Part shown: positions 30,427 to 45,804 of the stretch, piece after piece
Layout: each line of letters begins with the position of its first letter
Position numbering within the stretch: position 1 is the first letter of the stretch
Assembly (NCBI GenBank): GCA_019695335.1
Contig: JAIBAF010000010.1
Span: 1 to 64,000 of the forward strand
Length of the DNA: 64,000 nucleotides
Direction: 5' to 3'
Origin: a bacterium
Lineage (GTDB): Bacteria > CLD3 > SB21
Position numbers and translations under genes: made by a program
The notes under the pieces: model-generated
What the model saw: the letters and a program-made list of their open reading frames with translations, nothing else
The model's database searches: none
What the model was told of the DNA's origin: nothing

Positions 30427-31359
30427 TCAAACAACTTTCATCGTATCAATCATTTCTAAAAGCCTCTCCAGATCGTCATTGGAATAATATTCAATTTCCA
30501 ACATTCCTCCGCCGCCTTGTGCTTTCGGTTTTAAACGAACTTTCGTACCGAATTTCAATCGCAATCGATTTTCGACGGCATCCACATGTGGATTACGTTC
30601 GGCGACTTCTTCGATCTGGAATTTCGACGCTTTTTTCTCATGTTTGCCGTCAAGATCGTCGAGCATTTTTTTGACCAACTCTTCGGTTTTGCGCACGGAT
30701 AAAAATCCATCAACCACTGTTTTCCATGCTTTCAATTGATGCGCGCTTGACGGCAACGACACTAACGCACGACCGTGGCCTATTGTAATTTCTTCATTAC
30801 GTAAGCTATCTTGAATTTCAGAAGGCAATTTCAATAATCGAAGGATATTGGTAATGGTCGAACGGTCTTTCCCGATTTTCTGCGCTACTTCGTCCTGAGT
30901 CAGACGGCAGGTGTCAATAAGTTGCTGGTACCCTTCCGCTAATTCAATCGGATTGAGCTTTTCCCGCTGGACATTCTCGATTATTGCAAGCTCTAGCATT
31001 TCCTCGTCCGTTACCGATTCGCGAACATATGCCGGTAATGAATCCAGGTTAGCCATTTTTGCAGCACGGAAACGGCGTTCGCCGGCAATCAATTCGTAGC
31101 CGGTATTCGTTTTACGAACCGTTATCGGCTGGATCAACCCGTTTTGTAGCAGCGATTGTTTTAATTCCTCCAGCGCCTGCTGATCAAATTCTTTTCGCGG
31201 TTGAAACGGATTTGGCCTGATCGCATGGATCGGAATGGTATTGACGGAGGTCTCAGAATGTTTGAGGGTACCTTGAGAAGTAAGATTGGCTCCCGGAATT
31301 AATGCGCTAAGGCCTTTTCCAAGACCAGTGTTTTTTCTTGGAGGAAATTTATCAGTCAT
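30427..31359 (-). CDS. parB: Chromosome partitioning protein ParB (Spo0J)
   Basis: 310-residue ParB CTPase and parS-binding clamp for chromosome segregation. The N-terminal GLGKGLSALIPG peptide is the usual ParA-contacting segment. The CTP-binding motif GERRFRAA lies at 93-100, preceded by NPFQPRKEFD. A helix-turn-helix region (about 150-200, LTQDEVAQKIGKDRSTITNILRLL in the sequence) recognises parS. A C-terminal dimerisation region ends the protein. It lies 18 nt downstream of parA on the same strand. Confidence 0.96.
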   Translation of the reverse strand: MTDKFPPRKNTGLGKGLSALIPGANLTSQGTLKHSETSVNTIPIHAIRPNPFQPRKEFDQQALEELKQSLLQNGLIQPITVRKTNTGYELIAGERRFRAAKMANLDSLPAYVRESVTDEEMLELAIIENVQREKLNPIELAEGYQQLIDTCRLTQDEVAQKIGKDRSTITNILRLLKLPSEIQDSLRNEEITIGHGRALVSLPSSAHQLKAWKTVVDGFLSVRKTEELVKKMLDDLDGKHEKKASKFQIEEVAERNPHVDAVENRLRLKFGTKVRLKPKAQGGGGMLEIEYYSNDDLERLLEMIDTMKVV

Positions 31360-31377
31360 AGTATTTTAGGTTAATGG

Positions 31378-32157
31378 TCAGGTCGTTTGCGGTTCTAAAA
31401 TGTTGGCGATGACTTCTTTGGCCAACCCCATATAGTCTTGTGAGCCGACAGAGGCAGGATCGTACAGAATAATCGGTTTACCGTAACTGGGAGCTTCTCC
31501 CAATTTGATATTGCGGTGAATGACGCTTTTAAAAACTTTGTCTTTGAAATACTCTTTCACTTCGCTCACGACTTGATTGGACAAATTCAATCGGCTGTCA
31601 AACATCGTCAGTAAAACGCCTTCAATCGTTAAATTGGTATTGAGGTGACGTTGAACCAAACGAATCGTATTCAACAATTGCCGTAGACCTTCCAGCGCGT
31701 AATATTCGCATTGAATGGGAATGAGCACGGTATCCGATCCCGTAAGCGCATTGAGCGTTAAAAGCCCGAGCGATGGCGGACAATCGATTAAAATAAAATC
31801 ATATTTATCTCTGACCGGTGTAATAGCATTGAGAAACATTTTTTCACGGTCTTCGAGATTGACCAATTCGACCTCAGCGCCAACAAGCCGAATGTGAGCC
31901 GGCACTAAATCCATTTTACCCATCATAGTCTTGAGAATGGCATCTTCGAGTTTCATATTGTGAATGAGCATTTCGTAGGAGCTCTTTTCTATAGCCTCCA
32001 AATCAAACCCCAATCCGGTCGTCGCATTGGCTTGAGGATCCATATCGATCACAAGCGTACGCTTATCGGCGTGGGCCAGGCACGAAGCTAAATTAATAGC
32101 GGTTGTCGTCTTCCCCACTCCGCCTTTTTGGTTGGCTATAGCAATCACTCTACCCAT
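31378..32157 (-). CDS. parA: Chromosome partitioning ATPase ParA (Soj)
   Basis: 259-residue ParA/Soj-type ATPase that forms nucleoid-bound gradients to segregate ParB-parS complexes. The deviant Walker A motif KGGVGKTT is at 11-18, Walker A' is in DMDPQANAT and Walker B in DFILIDCPPSLG. GAGGA precedes the ATG. It heads a parA-parB unit with its own promoter and flanking ParB-like half-sites. Unusually, no gidA, rsmG or other origin-linked gene is adjacent; the upstream neighbour is nuoM. Confidence 0.96.
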   Translation of the reverse strand: MGRVIAIANQKGGVGKTTTAINLASCLAHADKRTLVIDMDPQANATTGLGFDLEAIEKSSYEMLIHNMKLEDAILKTMMGKMDLVPAHIRLVGAEVELVNLEDREKMFLNAITPVRDKYDFILIDCPPSLGLLTLNALTGSDTVLIPIQCEYYALEGLRQLLNTIRLVQRHLNTNLTIEGVLLTMFDSRLNLSNQVVSEVKEYFKDKVFKSVIHRNIKLGEAPSYGKPIILYDPASVGSQDYMGLAKEVIANILEPQTT

Positions 32158-32298: not shown

Positions 32299-33831
32299 TT
32301 ACATGGTAGGAATTCCCAAACGTGGAAAAATATCATTGGTAAGTCCGGAATTGATCAAATCGACAATCCAAACCGGATAGGCACCGGCCAATACGATCGT
32401 CAGCATAAGTATTGACAAAGCAAAAATTTCCCTGCGGTCTGTATCCAGTAAATGAGCGAAATGTTCATTCCGTAAAAGCGCTTCCGTAGGCTGGCCAAAG
32501 AAAATTCGCTGTACGGCACGAAGAACATAGATTGCCGTGAAAACTACGCCTGTCAGACAAATGAGCGCAATATATTTCATCATCGGACTTGGCGTTCCGG
32601 CAACTCCTGCAGAAAATGCACCGGTAAGTACCATCAATTCAGATACAAAACCCGACAGACCCGGAAGTCCCAATCCGGTCATGCCGGCAAAAACAAACGC
32701 AACCGTCGTGAAAGGCATTATTTTAGCCAACCCGCCCATGTCTGTGATCATGCGCGAGTGCAAACGTCCATACACAATTCCAACTAAAGCAAAAAGTAGT
32801 GCTGTCATAATTCCGTGTGCAAACATCTGATAAACAGCACCGTTGATTCCTGCCGAAGTCAACGTACAAATCCCCAGAGTTACAATTCCAAGGTGCGACA
32901 CGGACGAATAAGCGATAATATATTTCATATCTGTCTGCCTGATCGCCGACAAAGAGCCGTAAACAATATTGACGACCGTAAGGCACGCAAAAAATAACGA
33001 CCACTCCTGAGCGCCGTGCGGCATAAATTGTAATCCAATACGAATGATTCCGAACCCGCCGAGCTTCATAAGAACGCCGGCGTGAAGCATACTGACGGCT
33101 GACGGCGCCGATGCATGGCCATCCGGTGACCATGTATGCACCGGCCATAAACCACCGATCGTCCCAAACCCAACGAATACCATTGGATAGAAAATGTATT
33201 GCCAGGATTCTGACATGTTAAAATTTTGGCGCAGAAAATCGTAATCAAAACTCCACACGCCCGTGGCGGCATGGGCCTGAACATAGAGCCCAAAAACGGG
33301 AATTAATAATAACGCACTACCCAAGAGCAAGTACAACGTCAGTTTCATCGCCGAATATTCCTTCCGGCCCGTTCCCCAGATCCCGATCAACAAATACATT
33401 GGCAAGACGGCCAATTCATAGAATACCAAAAACAAAAAAACGTCAAATGAAACAAACACGCCGAACACGCCGCTCACTAAGATGAGCAATAGCGCAAAAA
33501 ACTCTTTCTGACGTTCTTTGATTTCCCACGAAATGAGGCAACCGGTAAATATCGTAATCGATGTCAGTAATAACATTGCAATACTGATTCCGTCGGCTGC
33601 AATATGATAATTAATACCCATCACTTGCACCCATGGAATATTGACTTCATAATTTCGTGCAACGGCAGGATCGTAGAAAATATACGCTACGACCGATAAT
33701 ATGACAGTCAGCAGCGAAGCGAACGAGGCGGTCATGCGTACGCCTGTGACATTCTCTTCCGGCATCATCATAATAATGAGCCCCGCCAGCGTCGGAATAA
33801 ATACGATTGCAGATAGTAAATAAGGTTCCAT
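32299..33831 (-). CDS. nuoM: NADH-quinone oxidoreductase subunit M
   Basis: 510-residue antiporter-like membrane subunit of complex I, one of the proton-translocating modules. It has about 14 hydrophobic segments. The conserved Glu of TM5 is in FVFYELAVLPMYLLIG and the broken-helix Lys/His region is in PDGHASAPSAVSMLHAGVLMKLGGFG. The ATG at 33831 is chosen over a TTG two codons earlier. It lies 7 nt after the methyltransferase stop, so it is still in the nuo transcript although separated from nuoL by two foreign genes. No nuoN follows; the next gene is parA. Confidence 0.94.
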   Translation of the reverse strand: MEPYLLSAIVFIPTLAGLIIMMMPEENVTGVRMTASFASLLTVILSVVAYIFYDPAVARNYEVNIPWVQVMGINYHIAADGISIAMLLLTSITIFTGCLISWEIKERQKEFFALLLILVSGVFGVFVSFDVFLFLVFYELAVLPMYLLIGIWGTGRKEYSAMKLTLYLLLGSALLLIPVFGLYVQAHAATGVWSFDYDFLRQNFNMSESWQYIFYPMVFVGFGTIGGLWPVHTWSPDGHASAPSAVSMLHAGVLMKLGGFGIIRIGLQFMPHGAQEWSLFFACLTVVNIVYGSLSAIRQTDMKYIIAYSSVSHLGIVTLGICTLTSAGINGAVYQMFAHGIMTALLFALVGIVYGRLHSRMITDMGGLAKIMPFTTVAFVFAGMTGLGLPGLSGFVSELMVLTGAFSAGVAGTPSPMMKYIALICLTGVVFTAIYVLRAVQRIFFGQPTEALLRNEHFAHLLDTDRREIFALSILMLTIVLAGAYPVWIVDLINSGLTNDIFPRLGIPTM

Positions 33832-33838
33832 AATCAAT

Positions 33839-34630
33839 TCATTTTCGTTTTAATATCATATAAACGCCCATCACGAGAATTTCTCTCAGCAAGGGCACGC
33901 GTTTCACCCATTGTATTTTTCTCGGCTTCACACCGTACCGGATTTCAAACGATGGACGTGTAAGATAGCAGTCCTGATGATCAATTTGAAAAACCGATTG
34001 CCGGATAGCCTGATTCAGCGATCCGATGGTTGTCTTCGTGCTTGTAATTTCTTTGGCCACATCCAGTGCCTGTTGATTGCCTTTCTCCACCGTAGCCACA
34101 AATCTATGATACATAGTTTCCGGCAAAAATTGCGTGTAAGGAAGTTTTCCTAATTTTGTTTTGGCAAACACTTGTTGATGCGCTCCGTACGGCGAATAAA
34201 ATGGCGGATAAGTAATAAAAATTCGTCCATCTTTAGTCAATAACCGGTCGCATAATTCAAACACTTCCTTTTTACGAGGCAAATGCTCAATGACATCACG
34301 AAACAAGATCAGATCGTATTGATCCGTATATTGCGCATCGTAACTCCGGTCATAAATATCAGCCGTAATATATTGCACTTTTCCCGATGCATGCTCGGAA
34401 TATTCAAACGGTGTAATGTCCAATCCGACGGCTTTTTCGCAACGTTCTGCAAAAGCTTCGATCACGCCTCCGCTCCCGCAGCCGATTTCAAAAACTTTTT
34501 TCCCTTCTAGCCGGACGCCGTTGTTCTCGAGCATCGGAATCAAATACTTTTTCGCCAAAATATTCTGGTATGTCCAATAATAATCCTGCCAATTTTTAAA
34601 ATCCGAAGGTTTGATCATCAGCGCCGTCAC
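33839..34630 (-). CDS. SAM-dependent methyltransferase within the nuo operon
   Basis: 263-residue class I methyltransferase. Motif I (VFEIGCGSGGVIEAF) is at 46-60, followed by an acidic residue after strand 2 (VGLDITPFE), DLILFRDVIEHLP as motif IV, and GRIFITYPPFYSP in the C-terminal half. The pattern is that of Methyltransf_11/25 proteins acting on small molecules, lipids or glycans. The GTG start forms a GTGA overlap with the stop of the GT-C-like gene; an ATG four codons later is the alternative. nuoM follows after 7 nt. The substrate is unknown, and a role on the product of its glycosyltransferase-like neighbour is plausible. Confidence 0.85.
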   Translation of the reverse strand: MTALMIKPSDFKNWQDYYWTYQNILAKKYLIPMLENNGVRLEGKKVFEIGCGSGGVIEAFAERCEKAVGLDITPFEYSEHASGKVQYITADIYDRSYDAQYTDQYDLILFRDVIEHLPRKKEVFELCDRLLTKDGRIFITYPPFYSPYGAHQQVFAKTKLGKLPYTQFLPETMYHRFVATVEKGNQQALDVAKEITSTKTTIGSLNQAIRQSVFQIDHQDCYLTRPSFEIRYGVKPRKIQWVKRVPLLREILVMGVYMILKRK

Positions 34631-36240
34631 CCTTTGGTCTTTTCAAATACATAAATCGCAAACTTACGGTCCGGAGAGACGAACTGCTGAACAAATTTAT
34701 AATCGGGATTTTTTGTCAGATCGTCCTGCTGAACGTTGCTGCTGAGGCGCCAGCTATAATGCGTATCCCAAACAACCAAACCGCCTACCGGAAGCTCAGC
34801 CATTTTCTCTTTACGCATTTCCAGATAGTTGCCTGCGGCGTACTCTTTTGCATAATAATTGAAATCGTCAAAAAAGAAAAACCACGGATGCGCAATCATC
34901 GTTTTCGGCGATTTCGTTTTCAAATTTTCCTCAAAATATACCTGAAAATTCTTAACCGTCTGATGCTCCGGAGCTAACTGCAAGGGCGGCTCTTTAATGA
35001 AAGTATATGCCATTGTCCCTATGGCCGCCGAAATTAGCATCAACTTTTGAAAAAAACGTCCGCTAAAATTCAAATAATGTTGCAAAACAAACAACAATAC
35101 CAGCAATAAAACCATTGAGAATTTCAAATAATCTTTCTGAGGTGATATAAAATAATCACCGATCAAATCAAACGAATAATACATCAACGTTATTACGGTA
35201 ATCCCTATTAAAGCGATCAATGACGTCTGTCGATTCTTTTGATCATTGAGCCACGTATTGGCGCCATCAAGAGCCCATAAAGCCATCATCGGCGCAACAC
35301 CAACAAAATGCCGTAAAAATCCGATCGAAGCTACATTCCCCTTCCAATAAAAATACACGTGAGTACAAAAAATCAGTATACACGAAATATTGATGATGTT
35401 GACACTGCGCTGACGGATATCATGAACCAATTGCAATAAAATAAAAACAAACAAAACAGGACCAACAATAAAAATAAATCGCTGAAAATAATGTTCAAAC
35501 GGGCCGTTCTGATAAAGGCCATGCCCAAATGATTTGGAAGCAGTTAATAAATATAGCACGTCGCCGGTTGCTATCATACCGGCAATTTGGTATAACGCTA
35601 AGCCGGTTCCCATAGCAAGAATCGGCCAGTATTTTTTCTCACGAAAAAATACAATCGCAAATATTGGCAAAATTAATACTAATTCCGTTCGTCCTAACGG
35701 CATCAACGATAACAGCAGCGCCGACGTCAACCATTTTTTCTTGTAGTAGTAATAAAGCCCGATTGCTAAAAAAAATGCGGCCAGAGGTTCGGTACATAAA
35801 CTATAACTCGTAATAAAAAACAGCGGCTGGAAAGCAATAAAAATAAGTGCAAGCCAAGGATTGGGTTTACCGGAAGCTTGTGCAGCTTTATAAGTAAAGT
35901 AACAGGTCGCAATTGATAATAGAATCGTTGCGGCTGCGCAATACCAATATCCTAATTGGGATGGCAATAAGAAAAAAATTATCGCAAGCGGCCGCCCCCA
36001 AATACTGAGAAAAAATTCCGGTTTTGTCATGGCCGCCTGTGCCATAAAATAACGGCCGATATTATCGTCGTCGTACGGACGCGGCGACTGTATCGTCCAA
36101 TATGCCGCGATGGCCGCAAATCCTGCTAAAATCAATACAATATTTTTCCACGATATTGCAAAAACATCTTCTTTATTCTGATTCTGTGAATTGGATGATG
36201 ACGCAATTCTGCCTGTTTTGACGGAAGCTGGCATGATCAC
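34627..36240 (-). CDS. GT-C-type polytopic membrane protein within the nuo operon
   Basis: 537-residue membrane protein with about 10-12 hydrophobic segments and a soluble C-terminal part (about 430-537). The first extracytoplasmic loop carries SPRPYDDDNIGRYF (Asp57-Asp59), the acidic loop motif typical of GT-C polyprenyl-phosphate-sugar glycosyltransferases. GRTELVLILPI and the HGLYQNGPFEHYFQRF loop also suit that fold (DUF2029/PMT-like). It probably transfers a sugar outside the cytoplasmic membrane; donor and acceptor are unknown. Its GTG start overlaps the nuoL stop (GTGA) and its stop overlaps the methyltransferase start in the same way, so it is tightly coupled into the complex I operon. 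Confidence 0.78.
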   Translation of the reverse strand: MIMPASVKTGRIASSSNSQNQNKEDVFAISWKNIVLILAGFAAIAAYWTIQSPRPYDDDNIGRYFMAQAAMTKPEFFLSIWGRPLAIIFFLLPSQLGYWYCAAATILLSIATCYFTYKAAQASGKPNPWLALIFIAFQPLFFITSYSLCTEPLAAFFLAIGLYYYYKKKWLTSALLLSLMPLGRTELVLILPIFAIVFFREKKYWPILAMGTGLALYQIAGMIATGDVLYLLTASKSFGHGLYQNGPFEHYFQRFIFIVGPVLFVFILLQLVHDIRQRSVNIINISCILIFCTHVYFYWKGNVASIGFLRHFVGVAPMMALWALDGANTWLNDQKNRQTSLIALIGITVITLMYYSFDLIGDYFISPQKDYLKFSMVLLLVLLFVLQHYLNFSGRFFQKLMLISAAIGTMAYTFIKEPPLQLAPEHQTVKNFQVYFEENLKTKSPKTMIAHPWFFFFDDFNYYAKEYAAGNYLEMRKEKMAELPVGGLVVWDTHYSWRLSSNVQQDDLTKNPDYKFVQQFVSPDRKFAIYVFEKTKG

Positions 36241-38216
36241 CGGTACATGGCTACGAGAATTTCAGGAATTGCAACATACAACGTTGCCAGGATTATAAAC
36301 AGCGCCAGCATCACGACAAGGATATAACTTTGCAGACGACCGCTCTGTACCGGCTGCATCAGGATTCCGATTCGAGTCGTGATAAATCCAACCAGATCGA
36401 CGGAGCCGTCGACGATATTCCGGTCAAACCATGCACAGGCCGCAGAAATGCGGAACAAAATTTGATTGAGGATCCAACGCCAGATCTCATCGATGTACCA
36501 TTTATTTTCCAGATGAACATATAAGCGGCCAAGTTTGCTTCGTAACGGATCATGCATTTCAGTCGTCCATTCCGGCGACCGTTTAGCATACATTATGAAT
36601 GCAACTAGAATTCCCAATACGGCCACTCCGGCTGAAATGGCTGCGATCGACAAATGAAAAACACCTTCGTGTTCCCACGTTGGATTCAGAAAAGCAGCAT
36701 ACGTTTTTAAACCCAAAGCATGGGCAATATCGGCATTACCGATCAGCCCGGCTACAATGGATAAAATACCCAATACCACCAGCGGCAATGTCATACTCAC
36801 CGGCGATTCGTGCGGATGTTTTTTCTCCGGCACTTCGCCCCAGAACGCAACGAAACACAATCTGAACATATAAAAAGCTGTGAAAAAAGCAGCCGTTAAA
36901 CCGACGCCAAATAACACGTAGCCGTGGATATTACCCACTTCCATCGCTAAGGCTAAAATTTCATCTTTACTCCAAAATCCTGCAAACGGCGGAATTCCTG
37001 CTAACGCAAGCGTTCCTATCAGAAACGTCCAAACCGTAATTTTCATTTTCGATCGAATGCCGCCCATCTCCCAAATATTATTCGTATGCATGGCATGGAT
37101 CACACTGCCGGAACCGAGGAACAGCAACGCTTTGAAAAATGCGTGTGTGAAGAGATGAAACGTTCCCGCCGTCTGCCCCATTAAAGCGAGATCAGTGCCG
37201 GAATGGCCGTGTGAAAAATTATTGACGCCGACCATACCGCCAATCCCCAACGCCATCATCATATATCCTAGTTGACTCAACGTTGAAAATGCCAAAATAC
37301 GTTTGATATCGTGCTGAGCGATAGCAATAGTCGCCGCGAAAATAGCCGTGAAACCGCCAATATATGCAACAAATAACATTGTATCCGGTGAACCGGCGAA
37401 AATCATCACGGCGCGAGCGACCAAGAAAATTCCGGCTACGACCATCGTCGCGGCGTGAATCAATGCGGAAACAGGCGTCGGGCCTTCCATCGCGTCCGGC
37501 AACCAGATATGCAATGGAAACTGTCCGCTCTTGCCCATTGCACCAAAGAAAATTAAAAACGGAAATGCTCTCGCAAGCCATTCCGCAGTCTGACCGTATT
37601 GTTGTTGAATTTCGGCAAAATTAAATGTTCCGAAATATCCCCATGCAATCAGCACGGCCATGAAAAATCCCAAATCGCCTGCGCGCGTAACTGAGAACGC
37701 TTTTTTGGCTGCATCGGCGGCCGATTTTTTATCGTAATAGTAACCGATCAATAAGTATGAACACAAACCAACGAGTTCCCAGAAAATAAACATCTGCAGT
37801 ACGTTGTCCGAAAGAACCAATCCAAGCATTGAAAAAGTAAATAGCGACAAATAGGAAAAAAATCTCGCTTTGCCGTCTTCATGCGCCATGTAACCCAGAG
37901 AATAAATATGAACCAACATCGATACCGTTGTCACGACGATCAACATCATCACCGACAAAGGATCGAGGTAAACACCGATGGTTACTTCAAGAGCCTTCCC
38001 GAGCGGAATCCATTCCAACGTTAAAGTTTGAGCTGTTCCGGCGCCGTTGTACATATCCAGCATCACACGGACCGATAAATAAAATGACGTCATAACGGCC
38101 GCGCATGCAATCCATGCCGTCAGCGTTTTGTAATTCCGCGTAAATAAAACTGTGATGATGAATGAAAATAAAGGCAGTGCAGGAATGAGCCAGGCTAATT
38201 CATAATAAGTAGACAC
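36237..38216 (-). CDS. nuoL: NADH-quinone oxidoreductase subunit L
   Basis: 659-residue antiporter-like subunit of complex I with the long amphipathic lateral helix near the C-terminus. Visible family segments include FIFWELVGLCSYLLIGYYY (TM5 Glu), KSGQFPLHIWLPDAMEGPTP and SALIHAATMVVAGIFLV, and the FSTLSQLGYMMMALG region. The frame is open six codons further to a TTG, but TAGGAGA sits 8 nt before the GTG at 38216, which I choose; the longer form would begin at the nuoK stop. Its TGA overlaps the start of the GT-C-type gene. Confidence 0.95.
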   Translation of the reverse strand: MSTYYELAWLIPALPLFSFIITVLFTRNYKTLTAWIACAAVMTSFYLSVRVMLDMYNGAGTAQTLTLEWIPLGKALEVTIGVYLDPLSVMMLIVVTTVSMLVHIYSLGYMAHEDGKARFFSYLSLFTFSMLGLVLSDNVLQMFIFWELVGLCSYLLIGYYYDKKSAADAAKKAFSVTRAGDLGFFMAVLIAWGYFGTFNFAEIQQQYGQTAEWLARAFPFLIFFGAMGKSGQFPLHIWLPDAMEGPTPVSALIHAATMVVAGIFLVARAVMIFAGSPDTMLFVAYIGGFTAIFAATIAIAQHDIKRILAFSTLSQLGYMMMALGIGGMVGVNNFSHGHSGTDLALMGQTAGTFHLFTHAFFKALLFLGSGSVIHAMHTNNIWEMGGIRSKMKITVWTFLIGTLALAGIPPFAGFWSKDEILALAMEVGNIHGYVLFGVGLTAAFFTAFYMFRLCFVAFWGEVPEKKHPHESPVSMTLPLVVLGILSIVAGLIGNADIAHALGLKTYAAFLNPTWEHEGVFHLSIAAISAGVAVLGILVAFIMYAKRSPEWTTEMHDPLRSKLGRLYVHLENKWYIDEIWRWILNQILFRISAACAWFDRNIVDGSVDLVGFITTRIGILMQPVQSGRLQSYILVVMLALFIILATLYVAIPEILVAMYR

Positions 38217-38234
38217 AACCGATTCTCCTAACAA

Positions 38235-38546
38235 CTATCGTTTGAGAGACGTTAATCCTTCGACTTCCAGACTTCGGAAGTTTTTGTAAACAATCATAAC
38301 AATCGCCAGCGCTACGGCCGCTTCAGCCGCAGCAATCGTGATAATAAAAATAACAAAAATGTGCCCCGTCACCGTAGCCGGGTACAGAAAGCGATTGAAC
38401 GCCAACGCAGCCAGGTTGATCGAATTAAATAAAATTTCAATGGATAAAAGCATGGATAAAACCGACCGGCGAATGAGCACACCCGTCATGCCGATGGCAA
38501 ATAAAATGACGCTTAATGTCAGATAATGATATAAACCAATTTCCAT
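38235..38546 (-). CDS. nuoK: NADH-quinone oxidoreductase subunit K
   Basis: 103-residue small membrane subunit of complex I with three helices. Conserved acidic residues for proton transfer lie in MLLSIEILFNSINL (TM2 Glu) and in AAAEAAVALAIV (TM3 Glu). The ATG at 38546 has AGGAG 6 nt upstream and is preferred to the GTG one codon earlier. It lies 11 nt from nuoJ and 18 nt from the chosen nuoL start. Confidence 0.96.
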   Translation of the reverse strand: MEIGLYHYLTLSVILFAIGMTGVLIRRSVLSMLLSIEILFNSINLAALAFNRFLYPATVTGHIFVIFIITIAAAEAAVALAIVMIVYKNFRSLEVEGLTSLKR

Positions 38547-38557
38547 CACATTCTCCT

Positions 38558-39142
38558 TTAGTGCTCTACTTTTTCAGCATGGAGTTCATGTTTCAATTCT
38601 CCGTCGTCATGATCTTCAATCTCATCAACCTCGGCTACCAATGGTTTGCGATCTTCTTGTTTCGCAATGTAGGTTGCTCCGATTAAAGCAACCAGCAATA
38701 AAATCGATACGACATCAAACGGAAAAATAAATTCACTTAATAATGCTTTTCCAATGAGGCCCAGAATATCAGCGGGAACCGCTGACATTTCGGCTGTCGT
38801 CCATTGAATTTTCACAACAATGGTGAGAATCAAACCCAACAATCCGAGAGCCAAAACCGGCGCCAAAAATTTTTGTGAATTAAATTGTTCTTTGTGTTCA
38901 TCGTTGATTTTTGTAGTCAGCATGATCGCAAAGACAATCAGAATCGTGATCGCGCCGATATAAATCAGCACTTGTACTACGGCAATAAATTCAGCATCCA
39001 GCAGAACAAACAACGCGGCCAGGCAGAAAAGCATCCCGGCCAGAAATGTCGCCGATTTAAAAATATTGCGGTGCAGTATGACTGCCAGCGATGCGGCTAT
39101 TGCCAAAGCTGCAAACAGATAAAACATCAATGCATGTACCAT
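38558..39142 (-). CDS. nuoJ: NADH-quinone oxidoreductase subunit J
   Basis: 194-residue membrane subunit of complex I with five helices; the FIAVVQVLIYIGAITILIVF segment (TM3, with the pi-bulge Tyr) is diagnostic. The C-terminus has an unusual acidic/His tail (about 160-194: DEIEDHDDGELKHELHAE) that is longer than in many NuoJ proteins. It follows nuoI by 3 nt. Confidence 0.95.
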   Translation of the reverse strand: MVHALMFYLFAALAIAASLAVILHRNIFKSATFLAGMLFCLAALFVLLDAEFIAVVQVLIYIGAITILIVFAIMLTTKINDEHKEQFNSQKFLAPVLALGLLGLILTIVVKIQWTTAEMSAVPADILGLIGKALLSEFIFPFDVVSILLLVALIGATYIAKQEDRKPLVAEVDEIEDHDDGELKHELHAEKVEH

Positions 39143-39145
39143 AAC

Positions 39146-39748
39146 TTACTCGCTTTGCTGTGCCGCCGATTTTTCAGCCTGCTTTTTTAAACGTTCTTCG
39201 TGTTCCCGTTTATTGATCACATTGACGATCTCGTTTTCACGGGGTGAAATAATCGGTAAATACGTCGATCCGGTTTGACGGCGGCTGGCGGTGTACAGAT
39301 CGTCGTTATATTTTTTATCTTTCACTAAAATCATGTCCATGTCTGCACGGTCATAAAATGAGAGTTCGTAATCATGTCCCATGATGATCGCGTCGAAATT
39401 GCACGCTTCAACGCACAAATTACAAAATTCGCATTTGGTGTAATCAAGAATAAAATCGTTGGCAATCCGCTTCTTCGTAGGGTCGGGATGTTTGTCATGC
39501 GTCACCTGAATACATGACACCGGACATACCACCACACACGCCATACAGGCCACACATTTGGTATAACCGGTAAACTCGCCTTCGGTTTCATACATCATCT
39601 TCACATAACCGATAAAACGGTCCGCGAGCGGTTTTTTAATTTCCGGATATTGTACCGTAGTCTTTTTGCGAAACATATATTTGAATGTCACGCCGAGTCC
39701 GACGAACAGCGACCACAAACCTTTGATAACTTCGATTAAATAACGCAC
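39146..39748 (-). CDS. nuoI: NADH-quinone oxidoreductase subunit I (2x[4Fe-4S])
   Basis: 200-residue ferredoxin-like subunit that carries clusters N6a and N6b to the quinone module. The two binding motifs are Cys65, 68, 71 and 75 (CVACMACVVVCP) and Cys106, 109, 112 and 116 (CEFCNLCVEAC). The GTG start has AAGGA upstream. With nuoB, C and D it forms the peripheral arm here; NuoE, F and G are not encoded in the window, so the electron donor entering at NuoI/B is not defined. Confidence 0.97.
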   Translation of the reverse strand: MRYLIEVIKGLWSLFVGLGVTFKYMFRKKTTVQYPEIKKPLADRFIGYVKMMYETEGEFTGYTKCVACMACVVVCPVSCIQVTHDKHPDPTKKRIANDFILDYTKCEFCNLCVEACNFDAIIMGHDYELSFYDRADMDMILVKDKKYNDDLYTASRRQTGSTYLPIISPRENEIVNVINKREHEERLKKQAEKSAAQQSE

Positions 39749-39763
39749 AGTTTTTTCCTTCGG

Positions 39764-40747
39764 TTAGCTTTTAAACCAAAGCGCGACGGCGCCGGTAACC
39801 ACTAAATTGACCAAAGCAAAAGGCAACAATATTTTCCATCCGAATTGCATCAAATGATCCACGCGCAATCTCGGGAAAGTCCAGCGGAACCACATCATCA
39901 GAAAGATCAATGTGTATACTTTGATAATGAACACCAAAACATGCAGCCACACGGGTACTTGCGAATTATCTACAAAAGGAATCAACCATCCGCCGAGAAA
40001 TAAAACCGTCATCAATGAACACGCCACGAGCATTTCAGTATATTCCGCCAAAAAGAAAAAAGCGAATTTCATCCCGGAATATTCGGTATGAAATCCTGCT
40101 ACCAATTCGGATTCCGCTTCGGGAAGATCAAACGGCGCGCGATTCGCTTCAGCTGTTGCCGCAATCAAAAACAAAAGAAATCCGAGCGGCTGATAAATGA
40201 CGTACCAAGTGCCCGAATCTTGCAACGCTACAATTTCACGCATCGATAATGTACCAGCGATTAAAAATACACCCAGTACCGATGTCACGAGCGGTATTTC
40301 ATACGAAATCATTTGTGCGGCCGAACGCATGGCACCGATCAGCGCATAACGATTATTCGAACCGTAACCGGCCCAGATTACCGAAAACACCATCGAACTG
40401 CCAAGCGCGAAAACATATACGGCACCCATATTCAAATCCTGGACACCAAGATTTTGTGCAACCGGTATCGTCACAAATCCGGCAAACGGCGCCACAAACG
40501 CTAACACCGGCGCCAAAAAGAAAATCACTTTATCCGACTGAATATTGCGGATATTTTCTTTGGTAACTAATTTGATGATATCGGCTGTCGTCTGTAGCAA
40601 TCCCCACGGCCCCACGCGGTTAGGTCCGATTCGTGACTGTATCCACGCCGAAACTTTACGTTCCATGAAAACGAGAATCAGCACCTGTACAGCGATGAGA
40701 CTGAACAAGATGACCACATATAAAAGTCCCAGAATTACGTCCATCAC
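39764..40747 (-). CDS. nuoH: NADH-quinone oxidoreductase subunit H
   Basis: 327-residue membrane subunit that forms part of the quinone chamber. It has eight hydrophobic segments, with ERKVSAWIQSRIGPNRVGP near the N-terminus and FDLPEAESELVAGFHTEYSG in the middle, both hallmarks of NuoH. The GTG at 40747 is immediately followed by an ATG (40744) that may be the real start. It lies 43 nt after nuoD. Confidence 0.97.
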   Translation of the reverse strand: MMDVILGLLYVVILFSLIAVQVLILVFMERKVSAWIQSRIGPNRVGPWGLLQTTADIIKLVTKENIRNIQSDKVIFFLAPVLAFVAPFAGFVTIPVAQNLGVQDLNMGAVYVFALGSSMVFSVIWAGYGSNNRYALIGAMRSAAQMISYEIPLVTSVLGVFLIAGTLSMREIVALQDSGTWYVIYQPLGFLLFLIAATAEANRAPFDLPEAESELVAGFHTEYSGMKFAFFFLAEYTEMLVACSLMTVLFLGGWLIPFVDNSQVPVWLHVLVFIIKVYTLIFLMMWFRWTFPRLRVDHLMQFGWKILLPFALVNLVVTGAVALWFKS

Positions 40748-40790
40748 ACATTCGCCTTAATTTAAGCTCAACACTTGATCACTTAGTTTT

Positions 40791-42020
40791 CTACCGGTCA
40801 ACATCTCCTAAAACAATATCCACGCTTCCGAGAATCGCAATCAGGTCAGCAATTTTCCATCCTCGCGCCGCCAACGGCAGAATTGATAAATTCGTAAAAC
40901 TCGGCGTACGGTATTTAACCCGATTCGGTTTGACCGAACCGTCCGATTCCATATACACCCCGTATTCACCGCGCGGAGCTTCCTGACGAATATACACATC
41001 GCCAACCGGCGGCTTGATATTGCGGGCCAACTTTTTCACTTTATAATCGCCTTCCGGCAATCCATCCAAAGCCTGACGGACAATTTTCGCCGCTTCCATG
41101 ATTTCATCCATGCGTACGCGAAACCGATCGTAACAATCGCCGTTGAAATAAACCGGAATATTAAAATCAAATTTTGGATACAATGAATACGGTTCTTCTT
41201 TCCGCAAATCCCACGGCAAACCGCAAGCGCGTAACATCGGACCGGTTATATCATAGCTGATCGCTTCTTCCAGCGTGATCGCGCCGATACCGCGTGTACG
41301 TTCGACAAAAATTACATTGCCTGTGATCAGGTCATGATAATCCGCCACGCGATCCGGTAAAATTTTCAGAAAATCATTCACCATTTGAATAAACTTCGGC
41401 GTCACATCTTCGGCTACGCCGCCAACGCGAATGTATCCGTAAGTCAACCGGCTACCACAAATTTCCTCAAACATATCGAGGATCGTTTCACGTTCACGGA
41501 ACCCGTAAACAAATCCCGTTAACGCCCCAATATCGGCCGCAAAAGCTCCCATCCACATCAAGTGCGATGCAATACGATTCAATTCCGACACGATGACCCG
41601 AATGTACTCCGCTCGCTCCGGAACTTCGATCGATGCTAGCTTTTCTACCGCCGCCGCAACGCCCCAATTGGCATTCATCGAGCCAAGATAATCCATTCGG
41701 TCAGTAAAAGGCACGATCTGTTGGTAAGTGCGGTTTTCGGAAATCTTTTCAAACGTGCGGTGCAAATAGCCCAGATCCGGTTCACAACTCTTAACGACTT
41801 CCCCTTCCATGCTCACAACGAGGCGTAACACGCCATGCGTGCTCGGATGCTGCGGCCCGATATTCATTAAAAATTCCTCGACGTGCAATTCATTCTCCGG
41901 CAAACCGCGGAGAATTTGTTTTTTCCTTGGAGGAATCTGATCGATTAACGGAATATCTTTACGGAAGGTTTTCTTCGACGCACTATGGGTTAACTGTTCT
42001 GACATAATTACTCTGCTCAT
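40791..42020 (-). CDS. nuoD: NADH-quinone oxidoreductase subunit D
   Basis: 409-residue 49-kDa-type subunit that lines the quinone site. Visible motifs are NIGPQHPSTHGVLRL (quinone-binding His) and DLGYLHRTFEK in the N-terminal third, and the terminal GSVDIVLGDVDR. It is not fused to NuoC. The first ATG is used here; Met6 would give an N-terminus of MSEQLTHSASKK. The 82-nt gap to nuoC is the longest in the operon and holds an inverted repeat. Confidence 0.96.
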   Translation of the reverse strand: MSRVIMSEQLTHSASKKTFRKDIPLIDQIPPRKKQILRGLPENELHVEEFLMNIGPQHPSTHGVLRLVVSMEGEVVKSCEPDLGYLHRTFEKISENRTYQQIVPFTDRMDYLGSMNANWGVAAAVEKLASIEVPERAEYIRVIVSELNRIASHLMWMGAFAADIGALTGFVYGFRERETILDMFEEICGSRLTYGYIRVGGVAEDVTPKFIQMVNDFLKILPDRVADYHDLITGNVIFVERTRGIGAITLEEAISYDITGPMLRACGLPWDLRKEEPYSLYPKFDFNIPVYFNGDCYDRFRVRMDEIMEAAKIVRQALDGLPEGDYKVKKLARNIKPPVGDVYIRQEAPRGEYGVYMESDGSVKPNRVKYRTPSFTNLSILPLAARGWKIADLIAILGSVDIVLGDVDR

Positions 42021-42029
42021 TCAAAATAG

Positions 42030-42090
42030 CCCGCGAAACACACAAAATTTTTCATTATTTTAATTTGCACTTTTTCGCGTTATTCGCGGG
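42030..42090. repeat. Inverted repeat spanning the nuoC-nuoD gap
   Basis: CCCGCGAA at 42030-42037 is repeated as its reverse complement at 42083-42090, enclosing 45 nt. A direct TTCGCG repeat lies next to the second arm. The stem could form in the nuo mRNA just ahead of the nuoD start; no T-tract follows, so it is not an intrinsic terminator. mRNA processing or stability control is possible. Confidence 0.45.
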
Positions 42091-42102
42091 AAATCGTATT
42101 CA

Positions 42103-42567
42103 TCATTTAAAATCCGGTTTTTTTACAAAAAATCCAGGACGTTCATAATCCTTTCTTAATCCATGCCCGACAAAATCCGGCGGCGTCAGAATGCGACGCA
42201 GTTCGGGATGACCTTCAAATTGAACACCGTACAGATCAAACACTTCGCGCTCAGTCCAATTCGCAATACCCCACCACTTCGTCAACGACTCAATCACCGG
42301 TTTTTGCCGGTCAAGTTTAACTTTGACTAATAGATAATGTTTGTGGCGGTAAGATTGAAAACCGTAGATCAGGTGAATTTGGTTTTCAGAAAGATGATCA
42401 GAGGCTGTCAGAAGATCGAGAACGGTACAATTCAATTCGGGAGATTCACGAATAAATTCAACAAAGGAGAAAAAATCATTTTTGTCAATAATCAGATTTT
42501 TATCGAATTCTGCTTCCGTCTTCGGAAACCGGCTTTTAACCAGTTCAACAATCGCTTGAAATTCCAT
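42103..42567 (-). CDS. nuoC: NADH-quinone oxidoreductase subunit C
   Basis: 154-residue 30-kDa-type subunit of the peripheral arm. The family signature NWTEREVFDLYGVQFEGHPE and the C-terminal RRILTPPDFVGHGLRKDY are present. It is a stand-alone protein, unlike the NuoCD fusion of enterobacteria. It lies 23 nt after nuoB. Confidence 0.95.
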   Translation of the reverse strand: MEFQAIVELVKSRFPKTEAEFDKNLIIDKNDFFSFVEFIRESPELNCTVLDLLTASDHLSENQIHLIYGFQSYRHKHYLLVKVKLDRQKPVIESLTKWWGIANWTEREVFDLYGVQFEGHPELRRILTPPDFVGHGLRKDYERPGFFVKKPDFK

Positions 42568-42590
42568 AAGTATTTTTTTTAATGTTGGGA

Positions 42591-43118
42591 TTAATCTTCA
42601 ACAACAGATTTTTTGCGAAGCACCCCTTCCTTTTCGATTTTCTTTTGCAGTTGCAATAAACCGTCGATCAAAGCTTCCGGACGAGGCGGACAGCCGGGAA
42701 GATAGACATCCACGGGTACCAACTGATCCACACCTTTGACAACTGTGTAAGAATCATAGTAAAAAGGGCCTCCGCCAATCGCACATGAACCCATCGCGAT
42801 CACATATTTTGGTTCCGGCATTTGATCATATAATTGTTTTACCCTCGGCGCCATTTTTTCGGTTACCGTGCCGGCGACAATCATCAGGTCGGCCTGACGA
42901 GGTGAGGCGCGCATGACTTCTGCGCCGAAACGCGACATGTCGAATTTCGACATCATCGTCGCCATCATTTCGATCGCACAGCACGCCAGCCCGAATCCCA
43001 AAGGCCATAACGAATTTTTTGTGCCCCAAGTAAAAATTTTATCGATACTGGTAATGACAATTTCTCCGCCGGGAAATTTTTCGATCTTCGGAAAAACGTC
43101 TTCATTCACTACTCCCAT
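42591..43118 (-). CDS. nuoB: NADH-quinone oxidoreductase subunit B (cluster N2)
   Basis: 175-residue subunit that holds the terminal [4Fe-4S] cluster N2. Ligands are in LACCAIEMM (Cys46 and Cys47), in the [11 protein letters not shown] region and in [10 protein letters not shown]. The ATG at 43118 is chosen because AAGGAG lies 7 nt upstream; the frame extends seven codons further to a GTG. The chosen start overlaps the nuoA end by 10 nt. Confidence 0.96.
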
Positions 43119-43471
43119 TCGAGCGCTCCTTTCTTCCACGCGTACACTAGGCCAAATACCAGCACAATTGTAAAAAACGTAATCTCAACAAACGCTACCA
43201 CGGGAATCGAATTGAATACTTTGACTAATGGAATGAAAAATACTACTTCCACGTCGAAAACGACGAAAAGCAGGGCAAATAAATAATAACGAATGTTGAA
43301 TTGAAAATAGGAATCGGCTTGGGCGGGCAATTCGCCGCATTCATACGGCGTTAGTTTCGCTTTGGAAGGTTTACTCGGACGCAGGGCCCATGAAGCCAGC
43401 ATCGCTACCAGCACCATCCCCGAACCGCCCAGTATAAAAATCAAAACGTAAAGGTATTCTTGCTGCAACAT
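43109..43471 (-). CDS. nuoA: NADH-quinone oxidoreductase subunit A
   Basis: 120-residue membrane subunit with three helices. The conserved PYECGELP loop and the [18 protein letters not shown] helix with acidic residues are diagnostic. A purine-rich GGAGAGAGAG element precedes the ATG. It is the first gene of the nuo operon, about 50 nt after the inferred transcription start. Confidence 0.96.
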
Positions 43472-43589: not shown

Positions 43590-44339
43590 TCAAAAACTTT
43601 TTGTCATACTTGCGCCGATATAATAGCTGTTCATTCCGATCGACGGAATACTTTCGATCCGGAAATTATATCCGGAAAGCTTTTGTCGCTTGTTGTACAT
43701 ACGCACAGCATTGATCGCGCTCAGTACGTGATTGACTACAACGCCATAAACAACAAATTGCGAATAACGTTTATAATTACGACTTTCCAGACGTTTATCC
43801 TCAAAACGGTTCTGGTTTGTTTCATTATCCCACTGCCAAAAATTGGCCGTATTTTCCTCATACACAGCTTCCGGTCCAAAAAAACGGCGTTGAATATCAT
43901 TGAAAGCATAAATATCCGTAAATTTACCGATCACTGAAAAATATCCCGACGGTTTCGATGTTTTCCAATTAACGTTTGCATGGGCCGCAGCTAACGCTTC
44001 GGCGTCGGACCGCGACCAATGGCTGTAACTCTGGAAATAAAAATGTCCGGCCCACAAAAGGGCTTCACTGGCAAAAAAATATTTCCCGGATTGCCATTCC
44101 CGTAACTGCCAATTATTTAGGTAGAGTTCACCCACGCCGGGTACAAGCAGAGACAACAACAACGCTTTTTTCTTTGATTTGACGGTAACGTCTTGTGTCA
44201 AATCATTCTGAGCAGGATAAACAGGAATGGTCCTAATACCTGCAACGCTAAATTTCTGTTTCTCAAATTTCAGAGTACCATCCGACGCGTGCAAAGATGA
44301 AAAAATTACAACAAGAAAAAAAATAAACCACCACCGCAT
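43590..44339 (-). CDS. DUF5683-like envelope protein
   Basis: 249-residue protein with a signal peptide (about 1-18). The segment KKALLLSLLVPGVGELYLNNW (about 56-76) followed by a hydrophobic stretch around YFFASEALLWAGHFYF is the pattern of DUF5683-type proteins common in the FCB group. The rest is rich in Tyr/Trp/Asn and ends in a beta-like IGASMTKSF with a terminal Phe, which would suit the outer membrane. The function is unknown. It lies 40 nt after the histidine kinase and 118 nt before nuoA on the same strand. Confidence 0.65.
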   Translation of the reverse strand: MRWWFIFFLVVIFSSLHASDGTLKFEKQKFSVAGIRTIPVYPAQNDLTQDVTVKSKKKALLLSLLVPGVGELYLNNWQLREWQSGKYFFASEALLWAGHFYFQSYSHWSRSDAEALAAAHANVNWKTSKPSGYFSVIGKFTDIYAFNDIQRRFFGPEAVYEENTANFWQWDNETNQNRFEDKRLESRNYKRYSQFVVYGVVVNHVLSAINAVRMYNKRQKLSGYNFRIESIPSIGMNSYYIGASMTKSF

Positions 44340-44379
44340 TCTATTTTCCCTTTCTGATTTTTTTCAGACCATGAGCCAA

Positions 44380-45804
44380 TTATACAGCAGGCTCTTTCGG
44401 AAATATCAAGACACACCGCGTACCTTGAGTTTCTCCGGCCGCCATTCGAATATCGCCGTTATTTTCATCCACTAATTTTTTTACAATCGCCAGTCCAAGG
44501 CCCGATCCTTTTTCCTTCGTTGTGAAAAAGGGATCAAAAATTTTATCACGAATACCCTCCTCAATCCCCTCTCCGTTATCTTCAATAGAAATTTCGACCT
44601 GATTCCCCGCCGAGCGTGAACCTATCAAAATCCGTCCATTACCGTTCAGCGACTGGATGGAATTCTCTATCACATTGACAAGAATTTGTCGCAAATGACC
44701 GGGATCAACAAATGTACGCCGTTCCTCGATATCCACATCGAAAACAATTTGCTTTTCTTCAATGTCAGGACCGAAGTTCAGTTGGACTTCCTCCACAAGT
44801 TTCAGAATATCACATACCTGAGGCTGCGGATTTTGAGGACGCGCAAATTCCAGGAAATCCGACAGAATTTTTTTCATGACGTCCACTTCCCGGATAATTT
44901 TTTTCGAATAATCCTTTTTCTTATCTCCCGTTTCGAGTTCTTTGTTCAATAAATGAGAAAAAATCTCTACGCCGCCCAACGGATTGCGCAATTCATGCGC
45001 CACGCCAGCCACCATGGTTTTCAAGTATTGATCGCGCTTCAAGATATTTCTGCGCATTTTTTCCATCGTATCTCCGAGAAAACCGATTTCATCCGTACTT
45101 TTGACTTCAATAGCTGTTTCCATATTACCCGATCCGATTTTTTCAGCTTCTTCCATCAATTGCTTGACCGGAGTGTTGATCGTACGTGAAAAGAAATAAC
45201 CGATCAGGATCGATACAAGCACACCGACAATTCCGACCGTAATCAAATGCCATTCAATACGCTTGATCAGGTATAAAAACGTAGCGCTACCGTCAACAGC
45301 AATGACGCCTTTAACTTCCTTATTGACTGTCATCGGTACAAAAGCTGTTTTATACAGCTTACCGTCATAGCTTTCAAACAGCATCGAATGTGACGGCAAT
45401 CCTTTGAGGGTACGTGCAAATTCAACCTGATTATATTTTAGCGACGGGTATGCATAAGTGATTTTCACACCGTCTTCCGTATCTAAGAGACTTCGCCCAG
45501 CAAGATCCATCACATAAATTCGCTCTACGTCAGTAACATCGCGTAAATCGATTAATTTTTTTTTAAAATTTTTATATGTCCGACTGTTTTCATCTCCACG
45601 GGCAAGTTTAGACACCAGTTCAGTATTAATTTGTAATGAAGCGGCATGCGCCACCGCAAGCAGCTTTTTGCCCAACTCTTCATCAAGGCTGTCTTCCGTA
45701 TACCAGTAATGCAGCATCCCGCTGACACTAAAAATAGTAAGACAAAACACTGAAAAAATGGCGATCAGTTTATTCTGAATTTTCGAGGCAATGAATCGAA
45801 ACAT
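44380..45804 (-). CDS. Sensor histidine kinase with HAMP domain
   Basis: 474-residue membrane histidine kinase. Two membrane segments (about 12-32 and 186-206) flank an extracytoplasmic sensor of about 150 residues with a dCache/PAS-like layout (RIYVMDLAGRSLLDTEDG). A HAMP domain (about 207-260, ending STDEIGFLGDTMEKM) leads to HisKA with His270 in GVAHELRNP. The ATPase part has N-, G1- and G2-box motifs (DNGEGIEEG, GSGLGLAIVKKLV). The stimulus is unknown. No response regulator is adjacent. It precedes the DUF5683-like gene by 40 nt, and these may be cotranscribed. Confidence 0.93.
   Translation of the reverse strand: MFRFIASKIQNKLIAIFSVFCLTIFSVSGMLHYWYTEDSLDEELGKKLLAVAHAASLQINTELVSKLARGDENSRTYKNFKKKLIDLRDVTDVERIYVMDLAGRSLLDTEDGVKITYAYPSLKYNQVEFARTLKGLPSHSMLFESYDGKLYKTAFVPMTVNKEVKGVIAVDGSATFLYLIKRIEWHLITVGIVGVLVSILIGYFFSRTINTPVKQLMEEAEKIGSGNMETAIEVKSTDEIGFLGDTMEKMRRNILKRDQYLKTMVAGVAHELRNPLGGVEIFSHLLNKELETGDKKKDYSKKIIREVDVMKKILSDFLEFARPQNPQPQVCDILKLVEEVQLNFGPDIEEKQIVFDVDIEERRTFVDPGHLRQILVNVIENSIQSLNGNGRILIGSRSAGNQVEISIEDNGEGIEEGIRDKIFDPFFTTKEKGSGLGLAIVKKLVDENNGDIRMAAGETQGTRCVLIFPKEPAV

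Follow-up and report, generated by a model that had tools for sequence, protein, structure and literature searches.

A gene pair that lies inside a complex I (nuo) operon in the 64,000-nucleotide stretch of DNA analysed here (the window) also exists without the type of complex I that surrounds it there. The two genes, which encode a predicted GT-C-fold membrane glycosyltransferase (GT) and a class I SAM-dependent methyltransferase (MT), stand between nuoL and nuoM on the minus strand, as the sequence-only reading had described. That reading had raised the possibility that glycan or lipid modification is co-regulated with respiration, or that an envelope component linked to complex I is modified. 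We found that a functional link of the pair to respiration is not supported; it is likely instead that the two genes are part of a transmembrane glycosylation cassette for an envelope glycan, which travels as a passenger with the transcript of complex I.

Along the minus strand the genes follow one another in the order nuoA-B-C-D-H-I-J-K-L, GT, MT, nuoM, parA, parB (Table 1); nuoD to nuoA were called from their position and from matches in syntenic relatives and in the genome G071. The reading frames of nuoA and nuoB overlap by about 30 nt (43109-43139), and the same overlap occurs in G004 and G071.

Table 1. Positions in the window of the gene pair, its neighbours and two sequence motifs
Feature	Position	Strand	Remarks
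GT (predicted GT-C-fold membrane glycosyltransferase, 537 aa)	34627..36240	-	probable start ATG at 36234
Asp58-Asp59 codons of GT, putative GT-C catalytic acidic pair	36064..36069	-	motif RPYDDDNIxRYF, first outer loop
MT (class I SAM-dependent methyltransferase, 263 aa)	33839..34630	-	Methyltransf_23 E=1.4e-13, above cut-off
SAM-binding motif VFEIGCGSGG of MT	34466..34495	-	from translation
nuoL, upstream neighbour of GT	36237..38234	-	PRK06590 671 bits, above cut-off
nuoM, downstream neighbour of MT	32299..33837	-	NDH_I_M 464 bits, above cut-off; probable ATG at 33831
nuoK, J, I, H, D, C, B, A, same operon	38235..43471	-	K, J, I, H by profile
parB and parA, downstream flank, synteny anchor	30427..32157	-	
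Unknown-function gene and sensor histidine kinase, upstream of nuoA	43590..45804	-	

Both joints of the pair had been described as GTGA stop-start overlaps, a type of junction that is common in bacterial operons and not unusual by itself. The overlap between GT and MT is credible, because G001 (at the same place) and G003 have ATGA overlaps there. A GTGA is also present between nuoL and GT, but it is possibly not the true junction: the ATG two codons downstream, at GT residue 3, aligns with the starts of the homologues in G003 to G006, so that the actual junction may be a 2-nt gap. The spacing of 7 nt between MT and nuoM was confirmed for the likely nuoM start. Co-transcription of GT and MT with the nuo genes is plausible from this gene spacing. 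A promoter-like site at 36319-36292, 50-80 nt before GT, was dropped, as its region gave 34 matches against 26 (sd 5) in shuffled sequences and as the site is not conserved in G001.

Outside the window nuo type, nuoM directly adjoins nuoL in 24 of the 25 nuoL loci examined, and the closest outside operon, that of G071, runs from nuoA to nuoM and on to a nuoN-like gene with no insert; the insertion is thus characteristic of the window family. The single exception, L045 (in the unrelated genome G047), has another ORF after nuoL; this ORF (L045:311-1453) resembles, by eye, an N6-adenine DNA methylase, and no nuoM lies within 1.5 kb. Within the family, gene order is identical in G001, which belongs to the same genus as the window, and in a second genus (G004, G005 and G006) the order is nuoL-GT-epimerase-GT2-PMT-nuoM, with no orthologous MT found in the three genomes. 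A short contig of G002 carries PMT-nuoM-parA-parB and ends inside PMT; a cassette of the same kind, with at least PMT, is present in the slot there, though GT itself did not turn up in G002 (85% complete). Sugar genes lie directly before nuoM in every family member with a readable nuoM flank and their contents vary, which makes the slot a genomic site where sugar genes differ from genus to genus. The earlier judgement that this is not a careless recent insertion is borne out, as three or more genera of the family share the slot and both genes are under selection; the comparison of related nuo loci proposed at that time yielded no uninterrupted nuoLM with the pair elsewhere. In a limited search of the open-licence literature, we found no case of sugar genes between nuoL and nuoM. 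The split complex I gene clusters surveyed in PMC12361115 are similar in that nuo genes lie outside a single cluster (here nuoN is detached), whereas sugar genes between nuoL and nuoM set the window apart.

Evidence on the relationship between the pair and complex I comes from G003, a genome that is 100% complete. The nuoA to nuoL, nuoM and nuoN genes of the window-type complex I are all missing from it, and its nuoL/M/N-type matches belong only to a second complex I. GT and MT are intact there, 57% and 65% identical to the window proteins respectively, overlapping and in the same neighbourhood: the order is histidine kinase-unknown gene-GT-MT-HU-ruvX with no nuo genes, such that the histidine kinase and the unknown gene found upstream of nuoA in the window directly precede the pair, and parA and parB lie farther along the same contig in an inverted arrangement. 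The nuoN locus of G003 is also empty, with thiG, a cNMP-binding gene, GT2 and argK contiguous, whereas in relatives GT2 and argK are separated by a 106-aa gene and nuoN. Thus, none of the three places where relatives carry parts of the window-type complex I has them in G003, and GT-MT stays. Loss of the window-type complex I in G003 is a simpler reading than gain, which would take three insertions, one on each side of GT-MT and one at nuoN; this needs to be interpreted cautiously, as species-tree support of 42-73% at the nodes that order the genera is too weak to prove loss, and the reading therefore rests on parsimony over several sites and not on the tree. Under loss and gain alike, GT-MT exists without window-type complex I.

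The pair is therefore not present or absent together with this copy of complex I, as a subunit or accessory gene would be, since G003 has GT-MT and no nuoL, nuoM or nuoN of this type. The functional link to complex I that had been suggested is not supported: GT-MT is retained where all tested parts of this complex are lacking, its partner genes differ from genus to genus whereas the set of complex I genes is constant, and distant homologues in G198 and G423 are found beside sugar genes and not beside nuo. These observations also make it highly improbable that complex I, or an envelope component attached to it, is the target that the pair modifies, a reading whose only argument is the location between nuoL and nuoM and which would have to accommodate other sugar genes in place of MT in G004 to G006. 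As G003 has a second complex I, the role of GT-MT might still be tied to respiration in general. More broadly, tight packing of genes in one operon says little about common function; here a relative without this complex I parts the passenger from the module.

A further alternative is an adaptive reason for the place of the cassette in the complex I transcript: the output of surface glycan would have to track the respiratory state. Retention of the slot in three genera, with differing sugar genes that always end right before nuoM, would be expected under such co-regulation, as would the tight gene spacing, and no conserved internal promoter was found at the nuoL end; however, G003 has the pair without a window-type nuo operon, and an old insertion selected for its own function looks alike, because clean removal from an operon is difficult. 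We regard adaptive co-regulation as unlikely, and we give distinctly less credence to the proposal that this undescribed lineage keeps a changeable envelope-glycan set in the complex I slot since respiratory coupling is adaptive, that is, as a respiration-linked site of glycan expression.

The glycosylation reading draws on the predicted structure of GT. The model built from 11 homologues (pLDDT 79, pTM 0.82) has GT-C enzymes or complexes containing them as its 17 best fold matches in the PDB, among them ALG12 (E = 4e-6, the best), ArnT (E = 6e-6), ALG9, AftB, OST/PglB, Pmt4, GPI-pathway proteins and PimE; TM-scores of about 0.5 assign the fold and not the family. An earlier model from six sequences, with a pLDDT of 47, was discarded, and the value of 79 was reached after five distant homologues had been added. 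On this model GT has the GT-C fold, which it shares with ArnT and the eukaryotic mannosyltransferases ALG12 and ALG9 (Foldseek probability 1.00), whereas sequence identity to these is 10-11% with no family-level match; a PDB sequence search with the GT profile gave chance antibody matches only. Weak profile similarity over residues ~99-219 connects GT to the AZOBR_p60025 family cell surface glycopolymer formation protein and to EpsG, with scores below the family cut-offs (32.1 vs 150 bits for NF046093 of NCBIfam and 20 vs 30.1 bits for PF14897 of Pfam). With GT, the GT-C superfamily gains a divergent group that scores under the cut-offs of current profiles and for which the fold is well predicted and the acidic pair defined.

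By analogy with GT-C enzymes in general, Asp58 and Asp59 are the putative catalytic acidic pair of GT. The motif is conserved down to about 21% identity among the 11 homologues, in which D59 is invariant and D58 nearly so, and the fold would place it on the outer face of the membrane. Observations that count against the glycosylation cassette include a motif that reads DDD, as opposed to the strict DxD of one family, and the lack of a flippase or GT2 in the cassette of the window.

A six-sequence GT profile run against 386 genomes gave clear distant homologues in G111, G198 and G338 only, and an extra search around G198 added G423. The order is GT2-MT-GT in G198, with a 4-nt overlap between MT and GT, and GT2-GT in G423, with no nuo genes nearby in either genome; the neighbourhoods in G111 and G338 are of mixed kinds and lack such a pairing. 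The G198 methyltransferase is 28% identical to the window MT over 137 aa, in the SAM core alone, so that the pairing in G198 could be convergent. The GT homologue of G198 (L129:8293-10497) has a C-terminal TPR domain. GT2 is not adjacent to GT in the window, adjoins it in G423, is one gene off in G198 and lies within the cassette in G004 to G006; GT2 candidates are present elsewhere in G000, the genome of the window.

Multi-component transmembrane glycosylation divides labour among a GT2, a flippase and a GT-C enzyme with a DxD-like motif (PMC8035078), and by analogy with these systems the contexts in G198 and G423 speak for a role in sugar transfer, with a polyprenyl-phosphate donor made by a GT2. 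Three-component systems such as CsbB/GtcA/YfhO (PMC8035078) resemble GT in the GT-C fold and in an acidic motif close to the first outer loop, and the relatives of GT are similarly encoded beside a GT2; the window differs in that no GT2 or flippase is adjacent, an MT is present and the genes lie inside a nuo operon.

MT scores 51.3 bits against the Methyltransf_23 cut-off of 27 and is thus a class I SAM methyltransferase; it exceeds several Pfam cut-offs, none of which gives a closer assignment. UbiG is its best named profile (38.8 bits) and is among its closest solved structures, as would be expected if MT methylated a quinone in the manner of UbiG or MenG, with the substrate as the tie to complex I and GT incidental. 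The score is, however, far under the UbiG equivalog cut-off of 102.95 bits and the likeness is confined to the SAM core; MT moreover travels with GT, in the window genus and in G003, and not with nuo, and the GT-MT overlap is still there in G003. We consider quinone methylation very unlikely.

Both genes are under purifying selection and, by this test, functional. A comparison of G000 with G001 gives a dN/dS of 0.05 for MT and, for GT, of 0.06 (NG86) to 0.12 (YN00); values for the nuo genes lie at about 0.00-0.06, and those for sugar genes of the cassette in G004 to G006 at 0.03-0.16. All of these ratios are rough, as dS is near or above 1. GT is the fastest-evolving gene in the operon (84% identity vs 92-99% for nuo); fast divergence is usual for surface-glycan genes.

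Gene order, predicted fold, acidic pair, purifying selection, partner variation and occurrence without window-type complex I are the observations on which the cassette reading is based. According to this reading, a GT2 encoded elsewhere in the genome would make the carrier-linked donor, and GT would take the sugar from the polyprenyl-phosphate carrier on the outward-facing side of the inner membrane, transferring it, by way of Asp58/Asp59, to an envelope glycan or glycolipid. The cytoplasmic MT would methylate one of the sugars of that glycan before it is exported. In an ancestor of the family the cassette would have lodged between nuoL and nuoM, and it probably rides along on the transcript of complex I without belonging to the complex.

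The window-type complex I has other peculiarities. In its operon (32299-43471), nuoD and nuoH lie too close together to accommodate nuoEFG, and the operon is without nuoN, which stands alone on another contig (L054:7282-8757); a second complex I is encoded on contigs C2 and C48 of the same genome. The 106-aa gene (L054:6931-7251, equivalent to contig C33:14930-15250 of the window's own genome, outside the window) directly precedes nuoN in G000, G001, G002 and G006 and is also found in G005; it was not found in G003, where nuoN is also absent. It is a candidate accessory gene of the window-type complex I, and as a partner of complex I it is a stronger candidate than GT-MT. Shortly upstream of the detached nuoN lies the GT2 glycosyltransferase gene (L054:6010-6870), which is kept in G003 without nuoN.
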